37,485 nt of DNA from Deltaproteobacteria bacterium (GTDB lineage: Bacteria; Myxococcota_A; Polyangia; JAAYKL01). Shown here piece by piece: positions 1 through 10,833 of this stretch. Position 1 is the first letter of the stretch; every line of letters starts with the position of its first letter. The notes below the pieces were generated by a model that was not told the origin of the DNA, did not search any database, and was given only the letters and a program-made list of their open reading frames with translations. The DNA lies in the NCBI GenBank assembly GCA_030591725.1, contig JAUVAN010000005.1, positions 1-37,485 of the forward strand. The letters run 5' to 3'. The translations under genes were made by a program, and so were the position numbers.

Positions 1-105
1 AACTCTGTACTGACACTGCGTGGTCTATATCTGAGTGAGAGATTGGAGCTATTCTGGAGCAACATGAACAAACAACGAAAACCGGCATTTCAGATGGCCG
101 CGTGA
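1..105 (+). CDS. C-terminal end of an unidentified protein (5' end outside window)
   Basis: Frame 1 is open from the first base to a TGA at 103-105 and gives 34 residues, including LSERLELFWSNMNKQRKP. The frame is too short to assign. The basic and aromatic composition could suit the end of a transposase or another DNA-binding protein, but that is a guess. It converges on the minus-strand lipoprotein ending at 147, leaving about 40 bases between the two stops. No domain is visible and the open frame could be chance. Confidence 0.3.
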   Translation, partial: NSVLTLRGLYLSERLELFWSNMNKQRKPAFQMAA

Positions 106-2790: not shown

Positions 2791-3468
2791 TCAACTTACG
2801 TCGCGCACGCAGCGTACTGCATATATCCCGCCGGCGTTGATGATGCTGACATCACCGCTATCGAAGGCCGCGACCCACGCGTTGCCACCGCTGCCGGAGG
2901 ACGACCAGTAACCGCCGACCTCCGTACCGAGCACGCTCGTGCATGTCGCGCTCTGGGCACACGAATCACAAGCGTGGTGGCTTCCCACCATGCTGCAGTT
3001 GCCCAACAGCTCCAGAATCTCGTCCAGTGTGGGAAGCCGGAACTCCGCGCCCATTATATCCTCGCAATAGTTCACCCCCGGATTGACCGGATCGCAGATA
3101 ATTGTATCCGCGCCGGTCGCGCCACACCAATCCATCGTTGGTTTGGTGCCCTCGCAGGTGTCAGTCACCATCGTCTGTTCGAGCGGACAGAGGCTCCAGC
3201 ACAGGGTGGTGCCAGGCTGGTACGCCTCGGTCGCCTCATCACAGAGATCCCCGTAAGTGTCAGTGTCGGGCCCGGAGTCGGGGCCCGCGTCCATATCGGA
3301 GTCCGTGTCCGTATCGGAGTCGGTATCAGAGTCGGTATCGGTATCAGAGTCAGAGTCGGAGTCGCTGTCGGTATCCGCAGATGCCGCATTGTCATCGTTG
3401 CACCCCCCATTACCCATGAGGAGCATCGCCGCCAGGACGAACAGAAACGTTATTTTCAGGGTGTTCAC
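2791..3468 (-). CDS. lipoprotein with Asp/Ser/Thr repeat linker and Lcl C-terminal (DUF1566-like) domain
   Basis: I place the start at a GTG (3468) behind an AAAGGA site. The frame extends upstream, but this start begins a signal peptide (VNTLKITFLFVLAAMLLMGNGGC) with a lipobox-like GNGGC. After the lipidated Cys comes a tract of about 35 residues almost entirely of Asp, Ser and Thr (DTDSDTDSDT...), a flexible surface stalk. The C-terminal part carries RLPTLDEILELL, GGYWSSS and YAVRCVRD, the signature of Lcl/DUF1566 domains found on bacterial surface proteins. Eight or more cysteines suggest disulphides outside the cytoplasm. Its function could be adhesion or surface display; no substrate can be named. 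Confidence 0.75.
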   Translation of the reverse strand: MNTLKITFLFVLAAMLLMGNGGCNDDNAASADTDSDSDSDSDTDTDSDTDSDTDTDSDMDAGPDSGPDTDTYGDLCDEATEAYQPGTTLCWSLCPLEQTMVTDTCEGTKPTMDWCGATGADTIICDPVNPGVNYCEDIMGAEFRLPTLDEILELLGNCSMVGSHHACDSCAQSATCTSVLGTEVGGYWSSSGSGGNAWVAAFDSGDVSIINAGGIYAVRCVRDVS

Positions 3469-3611
3469 TACTTTGATTCCTTTCAATACCGGACTACACG
3501 CCATGACGCACATTCCGTACAATGATGTGTCAAAATTAGCATGATTATTGTTCAGCGACAAAATAGCCCGTCCAATCGTCCGGAACAAAACATGCTATCA
3601 TGGGAGTCATG

Positions 3612-5041: not shown

Positions 5042-5257
5042 ATGGGCAAGATGTCGAATCGAGGATTCACAGTAATGATGACGATCCTCCTCACAACGGT
5101 GGGTGCGGCCGCAGGGATCGGGTTGTCGTTTGTGTTGAAACAGGCCGGATCCACCTGAGGGCTGCTCTGCTCACCGGTAGTTGCCGGTGTTTTCGGAGGG
5201 TTCATGGGCGGCTCCATCGGGAGTGGTATCAAGAGGGGCAACAAGGAGTCCGCGTGA
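5042..5257 (+). pseudogene. two-TM glycine-zipper small protein with an in-frame TGA
   Basis: A frame of 71 codons runs from ATG 5042 to a TGA at 5255-5257, but codon 39 is TGA (5156-5158). The part before it reads MGKMSNRGFTVMMTILLTTV... and forms one membrane segment. The part after it (VVAGVFGGFMGGSIGSGIKRG) forms a second, glycine-zipper-like segment. The terminal TGA overlaps the GTG start of cheY as GTGA, the same coupling used between other genes of this operon, which suggests the downstream half was or is translated. A single-base change (TGG to TGA, or CGA to TGA) would explain it. It could be a fresh pseudogene, a sequencing error, readthrough, or a genuine 38-residue peptide. Other genes here use TGA as a normal stop. 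Confidence 0.5.
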
Positions 5258-5640
5258 CCGCAAGGCTGCTGATAGTCGACGACTCGCGGGCTATGAGAGC
5301 ATACGTACGCGGTTCCCTGCGCGGTTTCGTGGACTGCGAAATCGACGAAGCATCCTCCGGCTTCGAGGCCCTGAGACTCCTTCCGCGCAAGGACTATAAG
5401 TTGGTGATAACCGATATCAATATGCCCGACATCAACGGGCTGGAGCTAGTCAAATTCGTGCGTGCTTCCGAACGACATCGAGACGTTCCCATAATCATTA
5501 TTTCCACCCATTCGTCTAAGCAAGATCAGAAGAAGGCTCTCGAACTCGGCGCCAGCGTCTTTCTTCCAAAGCCCTTCACACCGCCGGACATCATCGACGT
5601 CGTGGCGCGCCTCATCGAAGAGAAGGGCGGCGAGTCATGA
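5254..5640 (+). CDS. cheY: CheY-like single-domain response regulator
   Basis: A 128-residue receiver domain alone. The acidic pair is D9/D10 (LLIVDDS), the phosphoacceptor is D54 in VITDINMPDINGLE, the switch Ser/Thr is near S84 (IIIIST), and the conserved Lys is K106 (FLPKPF). Length and motifs match CheY. The start is GTG, overlapping the upstream frame's TGA as GTGA. The stop overlaps the cheA start as ATGA, so this is the first recognised signalling gene of the operon. It should accept phosphate from the CheA encoded next. With no output domain, it acts by binding a partner, which need not be a flagellar switch since no flagellar gene is present. Confidence 0.9.
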   Translation: MTARLLIVDDSRAMRAYVRGSLRGFVDCEIDEASSGFEALRLLPRKDYKLVITDINMPDINGLELVKFVRASERHRDVPIIIISTHSSKQDQKKALELGASVFLPKPFTPPDIIDVVARLIEEKGGES

Positions 5641-7820
5641 GCAAGAGCTCGCAGGGCAACAAGGCGATAAAGGAGTTTCTGGCCGAAGCACAGGAGTTCG
5701 TCGAATCGCTGAGCCGAAATCTCATTGAAATCGACAAGGCCATCAAGACCGGCGAGCCGGATCCTGACATGGTCAACGAGGTGTTCAGGGGATGGCATAC
5801 CCTCAAGGGTTTGTCCTCTACCTTCGGCGTGGAACCCCTGTCCCTGCTCGCCCACGACGAGGAGAGCCTGCTGGACGATATCCGTCTTGGCAGGAAAGCC
5901 TTCACGCCCCAGATCCTCGATTCCCTGTTTGAGAGCATCGAGGAAGTGACCAAGATTCTCGGCATTATCAACGAATCCGGGGATATCAAGGCGACCGGCT
6001 ACAGTGACGATCGCACAAAAACGACCCCGGGACAGTCCCCGGATTCCGGCCAGGCATCCGGCCATGGCAAAGAAGACGACGTGCCCGTCATCGACCCAAA
6101 GAACCTGATCGACGCCGAGGTGCTCGAGGTCCTCACGGAGTTCGAGGAGCATCGCCTGAAGATCAACCTGCAGCAAGGTCAGGCCATCTACAAGATGCGA
6201 ATCGGCTTCTCGCTGATGTCAATCGATCAGGAACTCGAAGATATCAAGGGCAGGCTCAGGCCCATAGGAGAGGTCATCACCTACCTCCCCTCCTCCGAGA
6301 GTAACGATCCGGATATACTCGATATCGATGTCCTTCTGGCGCTTCACCAGTCCCGGGACAACCTGGAGGCCGCGCTCGATGGAGTCGAGGCTGAAATCAG
6401 CACGCTCGTTCCCGGCCGGTACACGCCAAAGGTCGCGTCGGACACTATTATCCCGGCCCCTCCAACCGCCGAACAACTATCGGATTCATCGGAAACAGGC
6501 ATTGACGTCGCGGCAGCCTCTGAAATCGAGAGTCCGGGAATATCCGAGCGTGGCCTGGTGCAGAACCAGAAGGAACAGCCGCTCAGCCTGCGATCGGTCA
6601 GCCAGTCGGTGCGTGTCGACATCGGCAAGCTGGACCATCTCATGAATGTGGTGGGCGAGCTGAATATCATTCGAAATACGATAACGAAGATCAGCGACGA
6701 GTTGCGCTCCGTGAGCGAGCAACGTGAGCTGGCAATCGAACTTCACCGGGTGTCCCGTGGCTTTGATCGACGATTGGCCGAGATGCAGGAGGGGATCCTC
6801 GAAGTGAGAATGGTGCCCGTGAGCCAGATGTTCGATCGGCTCTCGCGCATGACCCGCAAGATGTCGAGAAATATTGGAAAGGAGATCAATCTGGTGATCT
6901 CCGGCACGGATACGGAGGTGGACAAGCTTATCATCGAAGAATTGTCCGATCCGGTGATGCACATCATTCGCAACGCCATCGATCACGGAATCGAAGATGC
7001 CGGCGAGAGGCGCTCCGTCGGGAAGCCGGAGTTTGGAACCGTCGCATTGACTGCGTACCAGAAGGGCAATCACATCCTCATTGAGGTGGAGGATGATGGC
7101 GCAGGGATCGACGGAGAAAAGATATTGGAGGTGGCGGTCGCCAACGGCTTCCTGTCGAAGGAAGCAGCCGCGTCACTATCCGAGCGAGAAGTCCTGAACC
7201 TGATTTTCCTGCCCGGCGTCACAACCACGGCCAAGGCCAACGAGCTGTCGGGGAGAGGCGTGGGAATGGATGTTGTGAAAACGAACATCTCTGCGCTGAG
7301 CGGCGTGGTCGAAGTCCAGTCCGAGCTGGGGATCGGAACGAAGTTCACCATAACCATGCCGGTCACACTGGCGATCATCCCCGCCCTGCTGGTCTCCGTG
7401 GACGAGAACACCTTCGCGGTGCCGCTCAACACCGTAGCCGAGGCGCTGACGATTTCCGGAGCGGACGTGAACAAGGTGATGGGGTTGGAAACCTTCACCC
7501 TGCGGGGACAGACCCTGCCCCTGTGTCGCATGGACGGCTTCTTCGGAAGGCCGCGCCACAACGCGATACCGAAGGGCTCCCGGTTGCTGGTAGCCTCCCT
7601 CGGGCAACGACGACTTGGCCTGGTGGTCGATGAATTGTTGGGTCAGCAGGATGTGGTCATCAAACCGCTCGGCCAGAGCCTGGATGAAACCAGGTTCTTT
7701 GCGGGAGCAACCGACCTGGGGGATCAGAAACTGTCACTCGTGATCGACACGGCCTCCGTCATAGAAGAGTTCTTCACCTCAGGTGAAGATTTCACGCAAC
7801 CGGCGGCGCCGGCGGAGTAG
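5637..7820 (+). CDS. cheA: chemotaxis histidine kinase CheA
   Basis: 727 residues with the full CheA order. The HPt domain has phosphorylatable H54 in RGWHTLKG. A middle domain (residues ~155-265, LTEFEEHRL...GEVITYLPS) resembles the one found in deltaproteobacterial CheA/FrzE-like kinases. A low-complexity linker precedes the dimerisation domain (~320-370, VRVDIGKLDHLMNVVGELN). The ATPase has an N box around N446 (HIIRNAIDHG), G1 around D487 (EDDGAGID) and a GRGVGMDVV motif near 540. The CheW-like regulatory domain spans ~575-715. All catalytic boxes look intact. Coupling to cheY is by ATGA overlap, and cheW follows after 3 bases. It autophosphorylates at H54 and should donate to CheY and to CheB. 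Confidence 0.95.
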   Translation: MSKSSQGNKAIKEFLAEAQEFVESLSRNLIEIDKAIKTGEPDPDMVNEVFRGWHTLKGLSSTFGVEPLSLLAHDEESLLDDIRLGRKAFTPQILDSLFESIEEVTKILGIINESGDIKATGYSDDRTKTTPGQSPDSGQASGHGKEDDVPVIDPKNLIDAEVLEVLTEFEEHRLKINLQQGQAIYKMRIGFSLMSIDQELEDIKGRLRPIGEVITYLPSSESNDPDILDIDVLLALHQSRDNLEAALDGVEAEISTLVPGRYTPKVASDTIIPAPPTAEQLSDSSETGIDVAAASEIESPGISERGLVQNQKEQPLSLRSVSQSVRVDIGKLDHLMNVVGELNIIRNTITKISDELRSVSEQRELAIELHRVSRGFDRRLAEMQEGILEVRMVPVSQMFDRLSRMTRKMSRNIGKEINLVISGTDTEVDKLIIEELSDPVMHIIRNAIDHGIEDAGERRSVGKPEFGTVALTAYQKGNHILIEVEDDGAGIDGEKILEVAVANGFLSKEAAASLSEREVLNLIFLPGVTTTAKANELSGRGVGMDVVKTNISALSGVVEVQSELGIGTKFTITMPVTLAIIPALLVSVDENTFAVPLNTVAEALTISGADVNKVMGLETFTLRGQTLPLCRMDGFFGRPRHNAIPKGSRLLVASLGQRRLGLVVDELLGQQDVVIKPLGQSLDETRFFAGATDLGDQKLSLVIDTASVIEEFFTSGEDFTQPAAPAE

Positions 7821-7823
7821 AGC

Positions 7824-8339
7824 ATGAGCAACTCGATAGTCATCCCGGACATGGCAAAGCTGAACGCTGAAAGCAAAAACTCTGTCACCGACGGCAAGGA
7901 AAGCGACGTAATGCTCGTTTTCCTGGGATTCACCCTCGGAGATGAAGAGTTCGGAGTGGATCTCCACCTGGTCAAGCAGATCGTCATACCTCCACCGGTC
8001 ACGTGGGTGCCTCGGGTACAACCGCATATCCTGGGTGTGATCTCGATTCGGGGCAATGTCGTCACGCTGATCGACACGCGGCGGCTCATGGGGTTCGAGG
8101 TGTCTGAACAGCACAACTCTGCCCGGGTGCTGCTTGTGGATGTGCGTGATGAGAGGATCGGCCTGCTGGTGGACGCGATTACCCAGGTGCGCCGGGTGCC
8201 GGTCCAGGCCTTCGAGGAATCGCCGGATCTCGACGAGGGAACCATGACCGATCACGTGGTGGGAATCATACGACCTGATAAACAGACCCAGGTGACCATC
8301 ATCGACCTGAAGGAGATCTTGCTGGAGGCAATGAGATGA
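7824..8339 (+). CDS. cheW: CheW coupling protein (first copy)
   Basis: 171 residues. A CheW domain starts after a ~30-residue N-terminal tail: FLGFTLGDEEFGVDLHLVKQI, PRVQPHILGVISIRGNVVTLIDTRRLMG, ARVLLVDVRDERIGLLVDAI. These are the usual CheW strands and hydrophobic core. GGAG sits six bases before the ATG. The product normally joins CheA to chemoreceptor tips at the inner membrane. It is followed by a second, more divergent CheW overlapping by ATGA. Two CheW proteins in one operon suggest either two receptor classes or array-lattice roles that differ between the copies. Confidence 0.9.
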   Translation: MSNSIVIPDMAKLNAESKNSVTDGKESDVMLVFLGFTLGDEEFGVDLHLVKQIVIPPPVTWVPRVQPHILGVISIRGNVVTLIDTRRLMGFEVSEQHNSARVLLVDVRDERIGLLVDAITQVRRVPVQAFEESPDLDEGTMTDHVVGIIRPDKQTQVTIIDLKEILLEAMR

Positions 8340-8842
8340 AGCCCGATACGTTTGCCAGGCTGCGCGAGTCAGCACACAGGGACAAGGATCGCAAGGCGGT
8401 GGAGTTCCACGTGGAAGAGATACGGTGCTGTGTGGACATCATGCGGGTGCGCGAGATAGTCAGTCCGGGAAAGACGGTGCCCATTCCGTCCGCTCCGCAC
8501 TGGGTGATTGGCGCCACGGATCACCGGGAGTCGGTTGTTCCGGTGACGGATCTTCGCTTGCGCCTGGGCCTGGAACCTTTCGAGTCACCCAGCGCCAGAT
8601 GGATCATCGTGGACGCGGGCGGGATGGACATGGCCTTGCTGGTGGACGCGGTCCATGGCGTGGTTACGGTTTCCGTCGACATTGAGAGGGAGCGGCACCC
8701 GGTGATGGACAACACCGATGTCACATGGGTCAGTTCGGTCTACAGTACGCCAGACGGGCTGATCTTCGAATTGGACCTGGACGCCATGTTCGATACCCGG
8801 AGAGATCGCGAAGACCGACCGGAAAACGGAAAGACCACTTGA
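8336..8842 (+). CDS. cheW: CheW-like coupling protein (second copy, divergent)
   Basis: 168 residues, starting in an ATGA overlap with the first cheW. It has CheW-type segments: VEFHVEEIRCCVDIMRVREIV, HWVIGATDHRESVVPVTDLRLRLGL, WIIVDAGGMDMALLVDAVHGVV. The usual RG of the 'NLRG' turn is replaced by TDHRES, and the strand sequence is unlike the first copy, so this is not a recent duplicate. Its C-terminal ~40 residues are acidic and basic mixed. Its stop overlaps the TTG start proposed for the HEAT-repeat gene, so the two are probably made together, and a CheW2-HEAT interaction is a reasonable inference. Confidence 0.85.
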   Translation: MKPDTFARLRESAHRDKDRKAVEFHVEEIRCCVDIMRVREIVSPGKTVPIPSAPHWVIGATDHRESVVPVTDLRLRLGLEPFESPSARWIIVDAGGMDMALLVDAVHGVVTVSVDIERERHPVMDNTDVTWVSSVYSTPDGLIFELDLDAMFDTRRDREDRPENGKTT

Positions 8843-10833
8843 CCGACGTCATGAAAAAATTGGCCCGGAGGATAGCCGACTCCAGCCCCGAGGTGAGGCG
8901 ACGGGCAGTTCGGGAGCTCGGCGCCATCCCGATGAAGGATTCAATAGACCTGATTCTCGTCGCCCTTGCGGACGACGATTGGCGCGTGAGAAAGGAAACC
9001 GTCTCCGTGCTTTCGGACGTGCCCTGTGACTCGGATGTCGTGGGACGACTCGTGGAAGCGCTCGTGCAGAACGATAACGTGGGCCTTCGCAACGCATCCG
9101 CAGAAGCACTCGCCACGATGGGAGGCGACGCAGTCACCATTCTGAGCGACCGCATGGGGTCCCTTGGCGCACAAGACAGAAAAGTCGCTCTCGAGGTCAT
9201 CGGCCGATCCGGGGATCCGCGCTCCGGGGACATGCTCATCTCCCACCTGAAAGATCCGGACGCCAACGTCCGCGTCTGCACGGCGGAGTTACTGGGGGAG
9301 CAAGGAGGCGGGGAGGCCCTGGACGCCCTGATGGAATGCGTCGACAAGAGTGACTACCTGCTCACCCTGGCCGCGCTGCAATCTCTCAACAAGCTGGGAG
9401 CCCGCATTCCCTGGCGGAAACTGGAGGATCTCTCCGATGATCCGATCCTCGGCTCGGAGATCCTGTTCGCCATGGGAAGAAGCGCACAGCCGGAGGCGGC
9501 GAGCATCATCGTCAAAAACATTCCCGAAGAGCCTGCGGCGGTTCGCTCCCTCGAGCTTCTGCATGGTGACTCCAACAGGACCGCAAAGGCTGTCGAGCTG
9601 GCCCTCAAGAACGCCGATGAGATTGTCCACGAGACACTCGCGGCCATCGTATCCCAGGAAGAAACCATCGATCAGCGGGCCGCCGTACGTTGCCTCATGT
9701 GGTCCAGGAGAATCGAGAGCTTGCCCTTGCTCGTGAGCCTGGTCAGTGACGAGACCATGCATCGCGTCATCGTGGAGGGCCTGTCCGACTGGGGAGAGCC
9801 GGCCTTTGCGGCGCTGGAGGAGATGCTTCCCACACTGGACGGGCGACCATTGGCGTCCGTTGTTGGTTTGCTGGCCAGAATCCTCGATGAGGAACAGGGC
9901 AGGAGCAAGGCCGCTCTTTTCATAGCATACCTGCACTCATCCAATATCGCAGTGGCAACAGCAGCGGCCGGCGCCGTCGCTCGATTTGGAAATGAGGGGG
10001 TGATTCCACGGCTCATCGAGATGTCGGCCTTCGAGGATAAGCGGGTTAGACGCGCAGCAGGACACGCGCTGGTTCAGGTGGGTTGCCGGGTTCCCGGGGC
10101 GGTCCGGGACAGGTTGTTGCAGATGGAGATTACCGGCCTCGGCGGAATCGAGATCTGCCGCGTATTCGAGGTCGTGGGTCGCCCCGAAGATACAAGTGCT
10201 CTGGCCGGCGCCCTGAGCTCGCCGATACCCGAGCTTCGAAGAGCCTCGCTGAGCTCTCTCGCTGCAATCGCAGGCAGCGCGGCGGTCGACACCATCTCTC
10301 TGGCGATGACCGACGAGGATATGGGGGTGAGGATGGCTGCCGCGTTCGCGCTCGCCAGAATCGGCCCGGCGGCGGCGGAAACCATCGTCTCGGCGATTCA
10401 CACCACGCAGGGGCCCCTGAAGGCCGCGCTCGTACGGGCGCTCGGGCGCGTGGGTCACATCGAGGCGCCGGCCATCCTCAAGGGTCTCTGTCGCGAGTCG
10501 TCCGAGGTGGCCATGGCGGCCCTCGAGGCCATGCGGAACCTGGAGCTCGCTCCTGGTGAATTACAATACGAGATACTCAACCACGACGACTCCGAAGTGG
10601 TCAAAAAGGCCCTTTTGTTTCTCGGTTCAGCAGTTTCGGGACAACGGATCGTGGCCCTTCTGAAACACCCTGCCTGGGACGTCCGGCTCGCCGCCGTGGA
10701 TCGTCTGTCCTTTGGCGAGTACAGGGATCCTGAAATATCGGTCGAGCTCGAAGCGAGACTACGCGATGAGAAAGACGATCTCGTGAGGGCAGCCATAGAA
10801 CATGCCCTCGAGGAAAGGAAAGGGGTGAAGTAG
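8839..10833 (+). CDS. HEAT-repeat scaffold protein in chemosensory operon
   Basis: About 664 residues. I choose TTG 8839, which overlaps the cheW stop as TTGA and has GGAAAG five bases before it; ATG 8851 is the alternative. Longer upstream extensions lie inside cheW. The protein is an alpha solenoid of roughly 30-residue HEAT/PBS-lyase-like repeats throughout: SSPEVRRRAVRELGAI, DDWRVRKETVSVLSDV, DPDANVRVCTAELLGEQGGGEALDALM, DEDMGVRMAAAFALARIGPAAAETI, HPAWDVRLAAVDRLSFG. No signal peptide or membrane segment is visible. HEAT solenoids bind proteins, so it may replace or assist receptors in feeding CheA, or act as an output target. Similar HEAT proteins occur in some Myxococcus Che clusters. 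No enzymatic residues are visible. Confidence 0.85.
   Translation: MTDVMKKLARRIADSSPEVRRRAVRELGAIPMKDSIDLILVALADDDWRVRKETVSVLSDVPCDSDVVGRLVEALVQNDNVGLRNASAEALATMGGDAVTILSDRMGSLGAQDRKVALEVIGRSGDPRSGDMLISHLKDPDANVRVCTAELLGEQGGGEALDALMECVDKSDYLLTLAALQSLNKLGARIPWRKLEDLSDDPILGSEILFAMGRSAQPEAASIIVKNIPEEPAAVRSLELLHGDSNRTAKAVELALKNADEIVHETLAAIVSQEETIDQRAAVRCLMWSRRIESLPLLVSLVSDETMHRVIVEGLSDWGEPAFAALEEMLPTLDGRPLASVVGLLARILDEEQGRSKAALFIAYLHSSNIAVATAAAGAVARFGNEGVIPRLIEMSAFEDKRVRRAAGHALVQVGCRVPGAVRDRLLQMEITGLGGIEICRVFEVVGRPEDTSALAGALSSPIPELRRASLSSLAAIAGSAAVDTISLAMTDEDMGVRMAAAFALARIGPAAAETIVSAIHTTQGPLKAALVRALGRVGHIEAPAILKGLCRESSEVAMAALEAMRNLELAPGELQYEILNHDDSEVVKKALLFLGSAVSGQRIVALLKHPAWDVRLAAVDRLSFGEYRDPEISVELEARLRDEKDDLVRAAIEHALEERKGVK

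Follow-up and report, generated by a model that had tools for sequence, protein, structure and literature searches.

Genes at the locus

The window (the whole stretch of 37,485 nucleotides analysed here) contains a frame at 5042-5257 that translates as MGKMSNRGFTVMMTILLTTVGAAAGIGLSFVLKQAGST*GLLCSPVVAGVFGGFMGGSIGSGIKRGNKESA*, that is, 38 codons, a TGA at codon 39, 32 more codons and a terminal TGA. The frame had originally been described as a single unit of 71 codons with TGA at codon 39, and translation of 5042-5257 confirmed this description. The features of the locus are collected in Table 1. The product of the gene immediately upstream exceeds the cut-off of no Pfam family; this gene adjoins the interrupted frame in all three members of the genus. 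On the other side, the terminal TGA shares the four bases GTGA with the start of a cheY-like gene. The original prediction had held this overlap to be hard to explain unless the second half is translated. The overlap is present in the window's genus, but other relatives have a gap at this place or no cheY neighbour, and it proved not to be the main argument.

Table 1. Coordinates of features at the locus (window positions, except for the helices, which are given as residues)
Feature	Position	Strand	Details
Gene for a hydrophobic protein of 120 aa	4670..5032	+	Ends 9 bases ahead of the start of the selenoprotein gene
Predicted selenoprotein gene, 71 codons	5042..5257	+	ATG at 5042, stop TGA 5255-5257; from homologue alignments
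Predicted Sec-encoding UGA, codon 39	5156..5158	+	Column of the conserved Cys of Cys-containing homologues
Codon for Cys43, +4 partner of Sec39 (UxxxC)	5168..5170	+	Kept in 13/13 Sec members of the window's clade
Probable bacterial SECIS element	5159..5203	+	Fits the SECIS model of PMC13188914; covariation
Upper hairpin of the probable SECIS element	5172-5189		Stem 5172-5178/5183-5189, loop AGUU 5179-5182, 20 nt after the UGA
Lower stem of the probable SECIS element	5159-5169/5194-5203	+	Beneath the upper hairpin
Predicted helices of the putative selenoprotein	residues 7-34, 45-63		Connecting loop bears Sec39 and Cys43; AlphaFold2 model
cheY-like response regulator gene (PF00072)	5254..5640	+	GTG 5254-5256 overlaps the selenoprotein stop (GTGA)
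cheA (Hpt, H-kinase_dim, HATPase_c, CheW domains)	5637..7820	+	Domain matches
Two cheW genes	7824-8339, 8336-8842	+	Come after cheA

Elsewhere in the window, an open frame on the minus strand (2791-3588) encodes a long Asp-Ser/Asp-Thr repeat, and comparable repeats are found in frames close to selB in L116 (2856-3737, 3-551, minus strand). A large repeat protein, HEAT-like by eye, is encoded on the plus strand at 8725-10833, between cheW and cheR in the che operon. Two adjacent frames on the minus strand (695-2754) have translations that look alike at their ends and may resemble proteins related to acyl-CoA dehydratase activases.

Conservation of the internal TGA and of the sequence beyond it

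Searched with the 71-residue frame carrying X at position 39, as the original prediction had called for, 59 related genomes yielded clear homologues in 10, which belong to three families (G000-G003, G006, G007, G009, G030, G038 and G046). Each homologue contains one internal TGA, kept at the identical codon within the common motif U-x-[LI]-x-C-[SN]-P, and no relative ending at codon 38 was found among the homologues recovered. Wider profile searches, covering 379 genomes of the phylum and 318 of the class, led to an alignment of about 95 members, from which duplicates, off-target matches and a few truncated members were left out. Among the 95 aligned homologues, the codon-39 column holds TGA in 32, a cysteine codon (TGC or TGT) in 62 and CGA in one, and TGG (Trp) in none; these counts carry a slight bias towards TGA, the profile having been built and searched with TGA read as Cys, and any TAA or TAG at this position would escape local alignment. 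In comparative analysis, a position that switches between Cys and UGA and never holds Trp is the usual mark of selenocysteine. For brevity, homologues with TGA at this column are referred to below as Sec forms and those with a cysteine codon as Cys forms.

The genome is a fragmented MAG of 513 contigs and TGA is one base away from TGG, TGC and CGA, circumstances in which a recent nonsense mutation or a sequencing or assembly error in an ordinary gene, both entertained originally, might be suspected. The presence of the same TGA in independent assemblies from several genera and families, always at the Cys column, rules out a mutation private to this genome as well as an assembly error, and together with purifying selection on the downstream half it leaves these explanations with a negligible probability. 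In genome G321, a TGA paralogue with an intact hairpin occurs alongside a close paralogue that has CGA and a partly broken stem (L133, C60; L186/L154, C114), as if one of the two copies had lost its Sec site.

The part of the frame past the TGA is under purifying selection. In three pairs within the genus, dN/dS of this part is about 0.18, 0.06 and 0.15, values that derive from one to three nonsynonymous differences per pair, and in every pair nonsynonymous divergence is lower downstream of the TGA than ahead of it, with a clear difference in two of them. Conserved residues of the downstream half form the pattern CxPxxxGxxG. Translation of the second half, as had been proposed from the cheY overlap, is thus borne out by selection on its codons. 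A standard-code gene caller stops at UGA-39 and an in-frame ATG is present in the second half, as would be expected if UGA-39 were a true stop behind a 38-residue, one-helix peptide, with the sequence beyond it either a relic or a second peptide that has its own start. Such an intended short peptide, another of the options first listed, is contradicted by the conservation of CxPxxxGxxG, by the stronger nonsynonymous conservation of the downstream half and by the Cys homologues, which are single proteins running uninterrupted across the codon-39 point; we regard it as extremely improbable.

The downstream hairpin and the selenocysteine machinery

The hairpin CACCGG-TAGTTG-CCGGTG, reported originally to start 13 bases past the TGA, was found as described at 5172-5189. 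Counting the U.G closing pair, it consists of a stem of 7 bp and a loop of four nucleotides, AGUU. The 51 nt from the internal TGA fold at -21.7 kcal/mol (z = -2.97), with one of 200 shuffles equally stable, and the 51 nt past the terminal TGA give an unremarkable fold (z = -0.77). The bacterial SECIS model of PMC13188914 comprises an apical loop of 3-9 nt, a stem of 4-16 bp, a G in the first two loop positions, a distance of 16-37 nt between UGA and loop, and a minimum free energy <= -7.5 kcal/mol. With its 7-bp stem, AGUU loop, distance of 20 nt and energy of -10.5 kcal/mol, the hairpin of the window lies within all of these limits. Applied mechanically, the same model accepts 21 of 32 Sec genes and only 4 of 64 Cys genes (Fisher p ~1e-9, a descriptive figure because related genes are treated as independent). 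Within the Sec genes, it accepts all 13 in which the partner cysteine follows the Sec codon (UxxxC) and 8 of the 19 in which it precedes it (CxxxU). Since many CxxxU genes fail this simple test of a contiguous stem, their SECIS elements may carry bulged stems. The CxxxU genes form a second Sec clade among the relatives of DUF6132 (L226, L229-L232, L235-L243, L245-L248), mostly from group f12.

Part of the palindrome is dictated by codons for P-V-V-[AT]-G in GC-rich DNA, and it is regenerated in 3-13% of synonymous reshuffles per gene, so that the hairpin in a single gene is weak evidence and the case rests on conservation. In a set of 13 Sec sequences (12 of the UxxxC clade and L137), changes on both sides occur in four of the seven stem pairs. 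The covariation score is 0.381, compared with a mean of 0.159 for shuffled alignments, none of 500 shuffles reaches it, and shifting the stem partners by 1-3 columns abolishes the pairing. A search of Rfam at the hairpin returned no RNA family. From its form and covariation, the hairpin at 5172-5189 is probably a SECIS element.

Hairpins downstream of a stop codon can also serve programmed readthrough; generic readthrough, or reassignment of UGA, for example to Trp, would give a full-length product that contains no selenium. Both are very improbable, as the codon-39 column holds only TGY, TGA and one CGA and never TGG, the hairpin conforms to the published SECIS model for bacteria and is mostly absent from Cys homologues, and the presence of the gene tracks that of the Sec machinery. 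Furthermore, the selenoprotein gene and cheY both terminate in TGA, which indicates that UGA is still a stop here and counts against reassignment. Of the readthrough suggested originally, only the SECIS/SelB-directed insertion of selenocysteine survives, a reading that had been hinted at, without being named, through the proposal to look for selA, selB and selC.

The MAG itself contains selB (350 bits together with its neighbour in the frame), a tRNA-Sec with anticodon TCA and selD (376 bits), and selA was not found in it (86% complete, 513 contigs), which leaves this genome alone without one required gene. Within the genus, selA is full-length in G001 (456 bits) and present as a fragment in G002. 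Seven genomes of the host family contain the gene together with tRNA-Sec, and seven lack both. Among the 59 relatives, tRNA-Sec or selA was detected in all 14 genomes with a Sec gene and in 16 of the 45 others (p = 1.7e-5). Two genomes, G003 (C30, C421, C441) and G007 (C97, C114), each have two full selA and two strong tRNA-Sec genes, and in G007 each selA shares its contig with a tRNA-Sec; this doubling reflects either duplicated Sec machinery or contamination.

On the basis of these comparisons, the 71-residue product very probably carries selenocysteine at position 39, a conclusion that we infer from sequence as regards the physical presence of Sec in the protein. The probable SECIS hairpin at 5172-5189 would direct SelB and tRNA-Sec(UCA) to decode UGA-39, and UGA-72, which has no such hairpin, would terminate translation.

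Structure, gene neighbours and possible function

An AlphaFold2 model of low confidence, built with 12 sequences (mean pLDDT 64.8), places Sec39 and Cys43 in a loop, residues 35-44, between two helices. From the basic residues at its two ends, the protein may have its termini in the cytoplasm and the loop facing outward, an assignment weakened by a Lys/Arg near the loop. A search of the PDB with a profile of the family gave nothing significant. The partner cysteine was counted in 96 rows, which include one more truncated Cys member (L221): 13 Sec proteins have it at +4 and none at -4 (UxxxC), 19 have it at -4 and none at +4 (CxxxU), and 61 Cys proteins have it at -5. This partner residue is the strongest clue to function: a single cysteine, placed either before or after the site, suggests a selenenylsulfide or disulfide that forms reversibly. 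In a tree of 52 columns, in which the deep forks remain open, the Sec forms fall into two supported groups (100/99 and 100/100), and the starred branches force at least three changes.

The gene lies directly upstream of cheY-cheA in G000-G003 and G009, which represent three genera of one family, and this arrangement is compatible with a chemosensory-specific role, in which the selenoprotein, its Sec decoding accepted, would feed redox signals from the membrane into the downstream CheY/CheA cluster. We consider this role rather unlikely, as the same protein is encoded in unrelated places without che neighbours in G006, G007, G030, G038 and G046 and its Cys relatives tend to lie near genes for thioredoxin and CcdA/DsbD. 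Moreover, among 80 scanned loci with cheY homologues the gene turned up in three relatives that were already known and nowhere else, which indicates that it is not a general part of the cheY cluster. Cys forms commonly have a thioredoxin gene ahead of them (a cluster of 16 loci) or a CcdA/DsbD gene, sometimes fused to thioredoxin, behind them (a cluster of 9 loci), with a few of either kind on the other side or strand. These neighbours were seen for Cys forms and not for Sec forms; G002, of the window's genus, has both a Sec gene and a thioredoxin-linked Cys paralogue (L212).

The association of the Cys relatives with thioredoxin and CcdA/DsbD genes makes a membrane thiol/selenol redox role likely, and, as the Sec gene occurs without che genes in several relatives, we infer that a general function in membrane thiol redox is more likely than a chemotaxis-specific one. 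Sec39 and Cys43, in the short loop between the helices, would probably form a reversible selenenylsulfide, which may pass electrons between partners of the thioredoxin/CcdA type and some substrate at the membrane surface. Such a redox relay, with its chemistry, partners and loop orientation deduced indirectly, appears moderately probable. It is conceivable, though doubtful, that a membrane selenol/thiol relay arose at least twice in the DUF6132 family with mirror-image partner cysteines (UxxxC and CxxxU) and that one branch was recruited into a chemosensory operon as a redox input to CheY/CheA.

Relation to known families

Scans of Pfam and NCBIfam with hmmscan gave nothing over cut-off for the window protein, which has no match to PF19628 (DUF6132; cut-off 23.2 bits) at E <= 1. 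The link to DUF6132 was obtained only through profile searches and Cys relatives. Searching with a profile built on the Sec family brings up DUF6132 members that hmmscan places in PF19628 over cut-off, the Cys members L134 and L135 exceed this cut-off (Cys relatives score 37.2 and 31.9 bits), and the Sec members stay under it, as do the bridging sequences L226 (11.9 bits) and L131 (10.7 bits). In the joint 52-column tree with DUF6132 relatives the Sec clade is supported at 100/99, with deep forks open. By these sequence relationships, the window protein is a putative Sec-containing relative of DUF6132, though under the Pfam cut-off. DUF6132 proteins are small two-helix membrane proteins to which no function has been assigned, and they share with the window protein two glycine-rich hydrophobic segments and a loop Cys, six residues ahead of a conserved Pro, that aligns with the predicted Sec. 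The window protein differs in having Sec in place of this Cys, a partner Cys at +4 rather than -5 and no thioredoxin/CcdA neighbour.

Neither DUF6132 nor a similar family is present in the 2026 catalogue of 119 prokaryotic selenoprotein families (PMC13188914), NCBIfam has no match over cut-off for either Sec clade, and a search of open-access journal papers found nothing relevant on this selenoprotein family. We thus appear to be dealing with a selenoprotein family that is in neither that catalogue nor the curated family libraries, and its type is unusual: a two-helix membrane protein of 71 residues. For DUF6132, these observations provide a testable active site, because the residue replaced by selenium is pinpointed and the partner Cys has switched sides between clades; this switch between the two Sec clades constitutes a natural experiment. 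As standard gene calling stops at UGA, further small membrane selenoproteins may go missed.

With the SECIS/SelB-dependent bacterial selenoproteins (119 families, PMC13188914), the window gene shares an in-frame UGA, Cys homologues, a probable SECIS element whose loop lies 20 nt from the UGA and has a G within its first two nucleotides, a nearby partner Cys, and selB, selC and selD in the genome. Most characterised selenoprotein families have a thioredoxin-like fold (PMC13188914), in contrast to the 71-residue membrane hairpin predicted here. The selenoprotein TsoA, listed as NCBIfam family NF045695 in the table of PMC13188914, has, judging by the name of its LULAxC motif alone, the same UxxxC spacing, but the window protein has no match to NF045695 at E <= 1 in NCBIfam scans. 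The proposed decoding mechanism is the canonical SelB/SECIS one.
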